Below, piece by piece: positions 55,270 to 57,503 of a stretch of DNA of 64,000 nt; positions within the stretch are counted from its first letter, which is position 1, and each line of letters opens with the position of its first letter. The notes under the pieces are model-generated. The model saw only the letters and a program-made list of their open reading frames with translations, was not told where the DNA came from and did no database searches. The translations under genes were made by a program, and so were the position numbers. This DNA is from Octadecabacter algicola (GTDB lineage: Bacteria; Pseudomonadota; Alphaproteobacteria; Rhodobacterales; Rhodobacteraceae): contig NZ_JAKGAR010000001.1 of assembly GCF_021532625.1 (NCBI RefSeq), positions 310,001-374,000 of the forward strand. Direction: 5' to 3'.

Positions 55270-55635
55270 TTATCCGTTAGGGACGAGGCTGTCGTCGAAC
55301 TTGATTGATTCACCGCAGCCGCATGCCTCGGAGACATTGGGGTTTTTGAACTTGAAACCCGCTTCCAAAAGGCTGACTTCGTAATCAATCTCAGTGCCGA
55401 ACAGGAACATTTGTGCCATTGGCGCGATCATCACGCGCGCGCCTTCTTGTTCGACAACTTCGTCAAGGGGATCTACGTCGCTGACGTATTCCATGGTGTA
55501 TTCCATGCCAGCACAGCCGCCTTTTTTGACGCCAATGCGCAATCCTTGCGTGCCGTCTTTTGCCATAAGTTTGGCGATCTGTGTGGCGGCTTTGTCAGTA
55601 ATCGTGACAGCTTGTTTTCCGGGAATGCCGAACAT
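55270..55635 (-). CDS. HesB/IscA/SufA family iron-sulfur assembly protein
   Basis: A 121-residue A-type Fe-S carrier with the three conserved Cys residues: C41 in KKGGCAGMEY and C105/C107 in ACGCGES. It carries assembled clusters from the scaffold to target proteins. The start MFGIPGKQAVTITDKAATQI is preceded by AAGGAGA. It fits with SufE (19982) and SufT (57129) elsewhere in the window. IscA, SufA or ErpA cannot be told apart by reading alone. Confidence 0.93.
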   Translation of the reverse strand: MFGIPGKQAVTITDKAATQIAKLMAKDGTQGLRIGVKKGGCAGMEYTMEYVSDVDPLDEVVEQEGARVMIAPMAQMFLFGTEIDYEVSLLEAGFKFKNPNVSEACGCGESIKFDDSLVPNG

Positions 55636-55680: not shown

Positions 55681-56379
55681 TCAAGAGGGCGGAAGCAGGG
55701 TTAGGGCATATTGGGTGAGCAGGGCCGCACAAATGGCCCAGCCAAACGAGGCCAATGTGCCGATAATAACATATTCTGCCGTGCGTTGATCGCGCGACGC
55801 GGTGCCAAATCGCAGTACAGATTTCGCCCCTACAAGAAAGCCCACGCCAAGGGGCAGGCCGGTGAGGATGAACACGAAGATCAGCCCACGTTCCAGCAGA
55901 CCAATTTGGCGCCCGCCGTCACGTAACCCGTTGTTGCGGATGCGCATGCTGTGGGGTTTCATCAACAAGGCGACTGTGTGTTGCCCCGCGATGAGCGTCA
56001 CGATGGCACCGGTTGCTATAATCATCGCGGGCAATGCCTGCGGGTAGGCGGCCCACTGGCCCGTTGCCCAAAGCTGGGGGGCATAGAAGGCGACTGCGGC
56101 TATTGTGACGACATGTGCGGCCTGATCGACGGCAAAGGCCGTCATGCCGCGGAAATTCCCGTTGGTTTTGATGCAATCGATAACAGCATGGGCGGCCGTC
56201 AATGCCAAGATTTCGGGGGCGGTTAAGTGCCCTGTTGCCGCTTGTGCCGTGGCCAACACCAGAGCGGCGTGTAACAGCATGACGCCCCCGTGGCGTTTGT
56301 GTTTGACCATCGCACCGGTTTGCAGAACGAAGTCGGCCAAGACGTGGGCGAACAGGAGGGCGGTGAAGGTTTCTATCAT
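55681..56379 (-). CDS. DUF3307 membrane protein
   Basis: A 232-residue inner-membrane protein with about six helices. The N-terminal part is typical of DUF3307: ALLFAHVLADFVLQTGAMVKHKR, LLHAALVLATAQ and AAHAVIDCIK, with conserved His and Asp residues inside the membrane. The start overlaps the SatD-like gene stop by ATGA, so both are translated together. DUF3307 proteins are often paired with SatD-like proteins, as I recall, but neither function is established. The pair appears to be controlled by the repeats upstream of the SatD-like gene. Confidence 0.85.
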   Translation of the reverse strand: MIETFTALLFAHVLADFVLQTGAMVKHKRHGGVMLLHAALVLATAQAATGHLTAPEILALTAAHAVIDCIKTNGNFRGMTAFAVDQAAHVVTIAAVAFYAPQLWATGQWAAYPQALPAMIIATGAIVTLIAGQHTVALLMKPHSMRIRNNGLRDGGRQIGLLERGLIFVFILTGLPLGVGFLVGAKSVLRFGTASRDQRTAEYVIIGTLASFGWAICAALLTQYALTLLPPS

Positions 56380-57026
56380 TGGCGGCTTTCCTCTTCACTC
56401 ACTCTGATAGCCTCAAGCAAAAACCGTGAACGAGCGCCGTCTAGTGACTTTTTTACGGATTGGCGTGACTTGCCGATTGTCTTAGCGAGAGACGTATAAG
56501 TTAATTCCTCGGACGTTCGTAGTACTTTTGAAATGTCGGCCGCTTGAGTTGGCGTCCAATCAAATGAAAGTCCATCGGCCAAAGTTAGTGCCGCATGGTT
56601 TGGGCCATGGTCGCTATGAGCCCATCGAAAAGCGCTTGTTTTATTTTCTCTGATTTCTTCTAGTAACGCACCAGAGGCCTTGAAAGCGGGACCAGTGATT
56701 TGGTTTAAGTCGGCTCCGTTCAAGAGAGGCCATGTCGCCTCATGCGTGGTGGCGACCGCCATGTAGCTATCAAAACCTGTACCGAGTCCTCGCAACACCG
56801 CTCTAAACAAAAGAACCGTTCTTAGTGTGAAAGACGAATTAGTAAGAGCGACTTGCCAACCATCTCCTCTGTGGGGGGAAAAGTGTAGCGGTGCGTTCTG
56901 CAACCTCGCTATGTCGTCTGCGGCATTGGATAAATGGAGGCTAGCTCGTTCTAGTTCAGATTGCGATAGTTGACTGGAATTTACCAAGTCGCCTGTAATA
57001 ACTGTGGATGCAATTGTTGGGTTCAT
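56376..57026 (-). CDS. SatD-like protein with C-terminal helix-turn-helix
   Basis: A 216-residue protein. The N-terminal part (TIASTVITGDLVNSSQLSQSELERA, SPHRGDGWQVAL, LLFRAVLRGLG) follows the SatD family pattern, which looks like a nucleotide-cyclase-like fold without clear catalytic residues. The C-terminus (LTYTSLAKTIGKSRQSVKKSLDGAR) is a likely DNA-binding helix-turn-helix. Base composition is visibly more AT-rich than its neighbours, with more TTA, AGT and TCT codons, hinting at transfer. Directly upstream of the start lie four related inverted repeats, so autoregulation of this gene and the coupled DUF3307 gene is a strong hypothesis. Confidence 0.75.
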   Translation of the reverse strand: MNPTIASTVITGDLVNSSQLSQSELERASLHLSNAADDIARLQNAPLHFSPHRGDGWQVALTNSSFTLRTVLLFRAVLRGLGTGFDSYMAVATTHEATWPLLNGADLNQITGPAFKASGALLEEIRENKTSAFRWAHSDHGPNHAALTLADGLSFDWTPTQAADISKVLRTSEELTYTSLAKTIGKSRQSVKKSLDGARSRFLLEAIRVSEEESRQ

Positions 57027-57127
57027 GCAGCCACAATAGCGTGCAGACGTAATAATGCAACTAATTTAGGTTGCTTTTTGAATTATGCACCCATTTTAGG
57101 GTGCTAAATGCAAGCTAAATGGCTTGC
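57027..57127. promoter_or_regulatory. Array of four 18-bp inverted-repeat operators
   Basis: Four 18-bp elements of the form GCAnnC-N6-GnnTGC: GCAGCCACAATAGCGTGC (57027), GCAACTAATTTAGGTTGC (57057), GCACCCATTTTAGGGTGC (57087) and GCAAGCTAAATGGCTTGC (57110). The first three start exactly 30 bases apart; the fourth is 23 bases further and is degenerate in the core but perfectly symmetrical. The array occupies the whole gap between the SatD-like start codon and the sufT stop, including the likely promoter. This looks like a cooperative operator for the SatD-like helix-turn-helix protein. Confidence 0.7.
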
Positions 57128-57128
57128 C

Positions 57129-57503
57129 CTACATGAACCCCAGTTCAAGGCGCGCTTCGTCTGACATCATCTCCATGCCCCATTGGGGTTCCCAGACCAG
57201 TTCGACATCTACTGTTTTGACGCCCGCCAGCGGTTCGATTGCTTCGGCGACCCAACCCGGCATTTCGCCCGCAACAGGACAACCCGGCGCGGTCAGGGAC
57301 ATGAGAACCTTAACTTCGTTCTCGTCATTGACCTGGATTGTATAGATCAACCCAAGGTCCAGAATATTTACTGGGATTTCAGGGTCATAGACCGTGCGAC
57401 ATGCTTCGACAATGTTGTCATAAAGCGGGTGATCTGTGCTCGATGGCTGGATCAGGGGTGTGCCTTCCATTGGTTCGGACTGAGGCGCGGTTTGATCGGT
57501 CAT
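57129..57503 (-). CDS. sufT: SufT/DUF59 iron-sulfur maturation factor
   Basis: A 124-residue protein of the MIP18/DUF59 family as found with Suf systems. Core motifs are IVEACRTVYDPEIPVNILDLGLIY, SLTAPGCPVAGEMP with the conserved Cys, and VELVWEPQWGMEMMSDEARLELG. The N-terminal 25 residues are a flexible extension. SufT helps mature Fe-S proteins under high demand in other bacteria. It stands alone, upstream of the SatD-like/DUF3307 pair on the minus strand. Confidence 0.9.
   Translation of the reverse strand: MTDQTAPQSEPMEGTPLIQPSSTDHPLYDNIVEACRTVYDPEIPVNILDLGLIYTIQVNDENEVKVLMSLTAPGCPVAGEMPGWVAEAIEPLAGVKTVDVELVWEPQWGMEMMSDEARLELGFM

Follow-up and report, generated by a model that had tools for sequence, protein, structure and literature searches.

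What reads the inverted repeats in front of a satD-like gene of Octadecabacter algicola, and to what effect? The window, the whole stretch of 64,000 nucleotides analysed here, contains this gene (56376-57026, minus strand) as the second of four on the minus strand, for which a Pfam search of the window gave the order DUF59 (PF01883), satD-like (no Pfam match at E<=1), DUF3307 (PF11750) and HesB (PF01521). The DUF59 / FeS_assembly_P gene (57129-57503, minus strand) is the upstream neighbour, context outside the module, and the HesB-type Fe-S biosynthesis gene (55270-55635, minus strand) is the downstream neighbour, likewise context. The satD-like product is a putative autorepressor, with a class III cyclase-like N-terminal domain and a C-terminal helix-turn-helix (HTH). 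The stop codon of its gene overlaps the start codon of the DUF3307 membrane protein gene (55681-56379, minus strand) as ATGA, and the downstream protein passes the DUF3307 (PF11750) model with 57.6 bits versus a cut-off of 23. The translational coupling of the two genes, claimed in an earlier note on this DNA, is upheld by the overlap, by this match and by the loci of relatives. From the stop codon of the DUF59 gene to the ATG of the satD-like gene there are 102 nt, and four 18-bp elements fill this region, as the note had said.

We confirmed all four elements at the positions given earlier, 57027, 57057, 57087 and 57110. Their starts are spaced by 30, 30 and 23 bp; the interval of 30 bases described for the first three was accurate. 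On the minus strand, the putative operator O1 (57027-57044, GCAGCCACAATAGCGTGC) is centred at -9 from the ATG and abuts the start codon; it is a weak palindrome with a -10-like TATTGT core. O2 (57057-57074, GCAACTAATTTAGGTTGC), centred at -39, is proposed as an operator from its symmetry and from orthologous sites, and O3 (57087-57104, GCACCCATTTTAGGGTGC), centred at -69, has perfect six-base arms and was found by genome pattern searches too. The fourth palindrome (57110-57127, GCAAGCTAAATGGCTTGC), centred at -92, is present as reported, with 6 of 7 outer pairs, but it is atypical: it lies 23 bp from O3, carries arms of another operator class (GCAAGC) and is an uncertain member of the array. 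A 23-bp step accounts for 2 of 128 steps among the relatives' loci, the window's own included.

Symmetrical outer pairs number 4, 5, 6 and 6 of 7 in elements 1-4, or 21 of 28 in total. Four non-overlapping scoring windows reaching at least 21 were obtained in 49 of 5000 dinucleotide shuffles; symmetry by itself is therefore about a 1% event, and the finding owes its firmness to the common arms and to the orthologues. Over the region as a whole, the highest total for four windows is 22, a value reached by 1/2000 and 7/5000 shuffles in two runs, and four copies of GCA-n12-TGC, a motif picked after the sequence had been viewed, never occurred in one shuffle (0/5000). Because only 4/7 of its outer pairs match, element 1 alone fails as a palindrome, and its standing rests on orthologues. 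On the plus strand, opposite to the genes, element 2 (57057-57074) and the T5 behind it are scored as a hairpin resembling a terminator, which is probably incidental.

The satD-like gene is present in 84 of 394 genomes of the window's family. A profile from a 28-row alignment matched 107/394 family genomes at E<=1e-3, and the 84 that reached E<=1.2e-47 were counted as members; an initial single-protein search of 149 family genomes had detected the gene in 28. A sample of the class yielded matches at E<=1e-10 in 3/385 genomes, all three from the window's own family, so the close subfamily looks family-restricted; a first scan of the collection with the single window protein found no relatives. 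The 84 loci share their neighbours to a large extent (DUF3307 gene in 82, HesB in 78, DUF59 in 76). The site searches covered 82 loci; in G226 and G330 no start could be placed by the GD motif rule, and both were left out. The satD-like gene of G330 (L117) lacks both GD motifs and a DUF3307 neighbour and apparently belongs to a decaying module.

The earlier note had proposed looking for the repeats at orthologous loci. They were found there, and its reading was not refuted by this test: a class-based scan of the sequence before satD gave 202 sites in 74 of the 82 loci, with at least two sites in 70 and at least three in 42. Control scans gave 9 sites in reversed upstream sequence (82 loci), 10 inside satD (82 loci) and 2 on the DUF59 side (81 loci). 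The operator classes had been defined after viewing the same loci, and we therefore repeated the search without classes; a palindromic 18-mer now counted if it had A at position 3 and a second such site stood 28-30 bp from it. Such chained sites occur before satD in 50/82 loci, in the satD-DUF3307 gap in 14/82 and in either place in 58/82, versus 0/82 in each of two controls. The class scan found no upstream site in 8/82 loci, and under the stricter class-free rule 24/82 had no chained pair before satD or before DUF3307. Four of the eight loci without upstream class sites (G055, G206, G294 and G317) have a chained pair before DUF3307, and in G294 three ACAGCC-type sites stand there at 29-bp steps. 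Class sites are found in the satD-DUF3307 gap in 15/20 loci where the gap exceeds 40 nt versus 3/45 where it is shorter (gap size was settled in 65 loci and could not be determined in 17/82). Since the array lies before DUF3307 in some relatives, the membrane gene would be at least as much a target as satD.

Spacing of the sites is narrow. Neighbouring sites in the class scan are 28-30 bp apart in 117 of 128 pairs, with a mode of 29 bp outside the window's operator class (76/100) and of 30 bp inside it (21/28). The helical repeat of DNA is 10.5 bp per turn, and at this value 29-30 bp amounts to 2.76-2.86 turns. Strict three-turn phasing on one face of the DNA, as read from the window at first, had to be rejected: the spacing mode is 29-30 bp, about 2.8 turns, and the last step in the window is 23 bp.

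The elements also follow the gene pair in its absence. A chained palindrome pair after DUF59 was found in 0/20 genomes that do not carry the gene; in 13 of these 20, HesB lies within 200 nt after DUF59, and a genome of the same genus, G145, has a bare 27-nt gap. As the sites are absent from non-carriers, the module appears to come and go together with its elements. Strict pattern searches of 8 + 7 genomes found stacked sites at the satD locus only, with patterns that weaker sites elsewhere would escape. Off-locus matches to the strict pattern versus its reverse numbered 20 versus 12 in the 8 genomes and 8 versus 14 in the 7 genomes (28 versus 26 in total).

Operators read by the SatD-like protein are expected to change with the residues that contact them. 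An AlphaFold model (pLDDT 91.9, pTM 0.90) contains an HTH whose predicted recognition helix spans residues 188-197 (56436-56465, minus strand), in agreement with the C-terminal HTH proposed earlier, and three residues, R188, Q189 and K193, co-vary with operator bases. The half-site types encountered are GCAAG, TCAAG, GAAAG, GGAAG, ACA- and GCANCC. Across 56 genomes with chained sites, R188 pairs with G1 in 41/41 cases and a non-Arg residue with A or T in 15/15; Q188 pairs with A1 in 5/5. Two genomes, G344 and G273, were excluded, their HTH being missing or altered. When class-scan sites are taken instead, the residue-188 rule is broken by 1 of 71 genomes (G331, Q with G). With a tree computed from N-terminal sequence, the HTH left out, the Pagel test favoured dependent evolution of residue 188 and base 1 (LR 29.7, p 5.6e-6), and ten control residues gave p 0.17-0.98. 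Independent switches are few (four for base 1), and a pairwise sign test therefore cannot reach 0.05.

For base 5, K193 is associated with C5 (tree-corrected p 0.002); the window protein has K193, and C5 is present in O2 and O3. This base is less securely assigned, because K186, S194 and Y88 likewise gave p 0.023, and Y88, which lies outside the HTH, had the top raw z-score. We rejected K186 as the reader of base 5, though not decisively, since G189 and G311 have C5 and K193 without K186 (p 0.023 versus 0.002). A further association was found at residue 189 in 44 other SatD relatives, taken from 45 with arrays after leaving out L212, which has no HTH residues: R or H at this position occurs with G2 in 24/26 cases and other residues with G2 in 1/18 (p 9e-5, in a test that is somewhat liberal, as 3/8 control residues reached p 0.03-0.05). 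Distant SatDs depart from the residue-188 code, with R188 paired to A1 in 5/5 (Bacteroidota) and Q188 to T1 in 3/3. Overall, co-variation of the elements with HTH residues is supported by the aligned sequences, as expected of operators that the SatD-like protein would read, and the elements are very probably operators of this protein itself.

If so, where do the sites lie relative to the promoter? A candidate -10 hexamer, TATTGT, can be read inside O1 (57033-57038, minus strand), and a candidate -35 hexamer, TTGCAT, would lie at the edge of O2 (57055-57060, minus strand), 16 bp from the -10. Both window hexamers are weak, and a consensus promoter scan of the window scored no promoter. The same geometry recurs in relatives: the proximal site is centred at -8 to -14 from the ATG in 44 loci (the window's weak O1 counted by hand), and these have T-12 in 31 cases, A-11 in 32, T-10 in 26, T-35 in 29 and T-34 in 30. 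In the class scan, the proximal sites of orthologues are centred at -8 to -13. Site positions 9-11 read TAT or TAA in 33/58 proximal versus 8/136 distal sites. An SD-like motif is seen in 6/44 proximal-site loci versus 18/38 others, and in 8/9 of the loci whose proximal site is 27-33 nt from the ATG. The palindromic sites thus overlie the putative promoter of the regulator's own gene. In our reading, O1 sits on the -10 and O2 covers the -35, and transcripts would be leaderless where O1 abuts the ATG. Because the proximal operator carries a -10-like core beside the ATG, autorepression of a mostly leaderless promoter appears likeliest.

By profile comparison the window protein is a remote SatD. 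Profile-profile alignment (hhalign) matched it to SatD (PF16264) with a probability of 99.6 over 198 columns, against a profile of four reference proteins found in 299 phylum genomes, three above the Pfam cut-off and one below. The SatD assignment of the earlier note is thereby sustained, though the Pfam model misses the protein: the model has no match to it at E<=1 and none over the cut-off in 7 subfamily genomes. The N-terminal part, approximately residues 4-140 (end approximate; 56607-57017, minus strand), resembles nucleotidyl cyclases, as judged by a profile match to Ma1120 (positions 4-98) and by Foldseek. In the PDB, the sequence profile of the window subfamily matched Ma1120 (E 6e-4) and that of the SatD references matched Rv1900c (E 8e-5; entered under the name lipJ), both class III cyclases. 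When the model was searched with Foldseek, the top places went to GGDEF and class III cyclases (best E 6e-4, TM 0.44/0.58). All 50 Foldseek matches listed are cyclase or GGDEF proteins, with moderate TM of 0.30-0.44 by query length. We conclude that the domain is predicted to have a cyclase fold. Its two GD aspartates, D13 and D55, are aligned with Ma1120 D positions and we take them to be metal-site aspartates; they are invariant in 28/28 sequences, and in 82/82 and 80/80 of sets partly selected on GD motifs. At position 120, R is found in 52/82 sequences and A in the window protein; R is found at 119 in 80/80 broad relatives, and either position is a candidate counterpart of the catalytic Arg. 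Neither of the two window proteins was matched at E<=0.1 by PADLOC models of Pycsar and other anti-phage systems, and the matches to relatives were weak (E 0.001-0.06).

Are the array and the membrane partner found beyond the family? From a collection scan we analysed the best 80 of 386 SatD relatives, so the sample leans to the near kin of the query. They are mostly from alphaproteobacteria, with Pseudomonas, Bordetella and Achromobacter, and 18 come from Armatimonadetes, Bacteroidota, Chlorobiaceae and Solibacteraceae. A motif-free search found similar upstream palindromes 28-30 bp apart in 45/80 of these best-scoring relatives, versus 0/80 in a coding control, with a sharp peak at 29 bp; this figure comes from one of four thresholds, the others giving 27, 48 and 51 of 80 versus 0, 2 and 3 in the control. 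No phased palindromes were found upstream in the other 35 of the best 80. Phased palindromes are present at 7 of the 18 non-proteobacterial loci. Five Bacteroidota loci (L222, L229, L231, L232 and L237) have AT-rich palindromes, AAATAAT...ATTATTT and similar, at a 29-bp step, and spacing thus outlasts operator sequence. At one further locus (L158, G785), a more distant SatD relative is followed by a DUF3307 protein, and the palindromes upstream extend over a longer 22-28 bp and are spaced by 28 bp.

The partner is shared in part. In the DUF3307 protein of the window, the C-terminal half (55702-55926, minus strand) is a membrane domain, here called LER (GxxIGxLER...AAKSxxRF...EYxxxGTxxS), that is common to SatD partners in the other sampled lineages, where a small membrane protein encoded after satD consists of this domain alone. 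It is encoded after satD in 78 of the best 80 relatives (two of the 80 partner loci are also in the training set of the LER model), and the other two loci end before any downstream ORF is visible. None of the Pfam and NCBIfam models matches the LER domain in the partner proteins scanned, and both short partners scanned lack the DUF3307 domain proper. A phage collection searched with the DUF3307 protein gave no match. These comparisons suggest that what counts for SatD in the DUF3307 protein is its unannotated C-terminal domain. The small self-regulated SatD-DUF3307 membrane system of the earlier note holds in outline, with an array that is conserved and co-varies with the HTH, but the array sometimes stands before DUF3307 and the shared partner is the LER domain. 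The finding is genuine and larger than first stated: the array is conserved along with the two genes and recurs in several phyla.

Taken as a whole, these results are best explained, with high probability in our judgement, by a tandem operator array that the SatD-like protein would read and through which it would repress the satD-DUF3307 operon. SatD dimers would bind the 18-bp palindromes via the C-terminal HTH, with a recognition helix from R188, and would line up next to one another every 29-30 bp. The nearest site would cover the -10 of a promoter whose transcript start is at or beside the ATG, and the next site the -35. SatD bound over both -10 and -35 would repress the operon, a case of negative autoregulation. 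Dimerisation and sensing, possibly of a nucleotide or a metal, are probably the task of the N-terminal cyclase-like domain, and the membrane protein may be the effector or a partner that relieves repression. Presence, conservation, spacing and promoter overlap of the elements were computed directly, as were HTH co-variation, the confinement of stacked sites to this locus across the searched genomes, the fold and the recurrent membrane partner. From them binding by SatD is well supported, if indirectly, and repression is likely, judged by site position; sensing and the role of the membrane partner are conjecture.

The same data bear on other readings. The module is flanked by Fe-S genes, DUF59 (in 76/84 loci) and HesB (in 78/84), as one would expect if the elements were bound by some regulator other than SatD, such as an iron or iron-sulphur regulator of these flanking genes, with SatD as a bystander. 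However, there are no sites after DUF59 in 20/20 non-carriers, the sites shift to the satD-DUF3307 gap in some lineages, the operator bases track SatD HTH residues, and sites occur at SatD loci elsewhere, where the retrieved flanks of 84 loci showed neither a DUF59 nor a HesB gene. We consider a separate Fe-S regulator improbable and, with non-carriers lacking sites and distant SatD flanks lacking DUF59 and HesB, rejected regulation tied to the Fe-S neighbours. It is harder still to credit that the inverted repeats act as RNA hairpins, as attenuator or stability elements in a DUF59-satD read-through transcript. Each element could fold into a short hairpin, and element 2 is terminator-like, but on the plus strand; moreover, similar arms are repeated within a genome, the spacing is fixed at 29-30 bp, the arm bases track HTH residues, and O1 overlaps the promoter core beside the start codon.

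A further possibility concerns not the reader but the sign of its action: SatD may bind the array and activate the operon, or an oligomerising switch may repress or activate according to its state. Sites at about -69 and about -98 could recruit polymerase, and a sensing domain would permit two states. The nearest sites, however, overlie the -10 and -35, the classic position of a repressor, and we regard activation or a dual switch as unlikely. We thus retain autorepression by SatD from a tandem array as the preferred explanation.

The name SatD (secretion, acid tolerance) stems from streptococci, and satD is described as accessory yet seemingly essential in transposon screens of S. mutans (matched excerpts of PMC11323703). 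Excerpts matched in our literature search also mention the 'SatD family' (PMC10326533) and DUF3307 (PMC8504454). Among the matches listed, in a literature from which subscription journals were mostly outside reach, nothing was found on SatD operators, DNA binding or a regulatory role, and the excerpts searched give neither the SatD nor the DUF3307 family an established function. SatD would now gain a concrete, testable job as a sequence-specific autoregulator, together with an outline residue-to-base code, a promoter architecture and a near-invariable membrane partner. Sequence comparison suggests that members of the SatD family are self-controlling gene switches paired with a membrane protein. 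A bolder view, which we put forward tentatively and rate as possible rather than probable, is that SatD is a widespread ligand-gated repressor, in which a nucleotidyl-cyclase-like domain that binds or makes a nucleotide controls an HTH self-assembling on a 29-bp-stepped array. Its sole conserved output would be itself and an obligate small membrane protein of an unnamed domain, a self-contained membrane surveillance module present in several phyla and with a recognition code readable from sequence.

How does this putative switch compare with known systems? It is like SatD proteins of PF16264 in its two-domain layout, in the domain of its membrane partner and in the palindromes 28-29 bp apart upstream (four reference loci), although the window protein escapes the Pfam model. 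With class III cyclases (Ma1120, Rv1900c) and GGDEF proteins it shares the predicted N-terminal fold and the two aspartates aligned to Ma1120 D positions; unlike class III cyclases, it has the putative cyclase domain fused to a DNA-binding HTH. The C-terminal residues resemble the MarR-type winged HTH of AdcR and ZitR in a weak sequence match (E 0.01-0.2), but this match is limited to the HTH region and the N-terminal domain is unlike that of MarR-type regulators. One-component autorepressors with several tandem operators place a local operator array over their own promoter, as here. The SatD-like protein differs from them in an array stepped by 29-30 bp with up to about five sites, in a conserved membrane partner and in a cyclase-like N-terminal domain.
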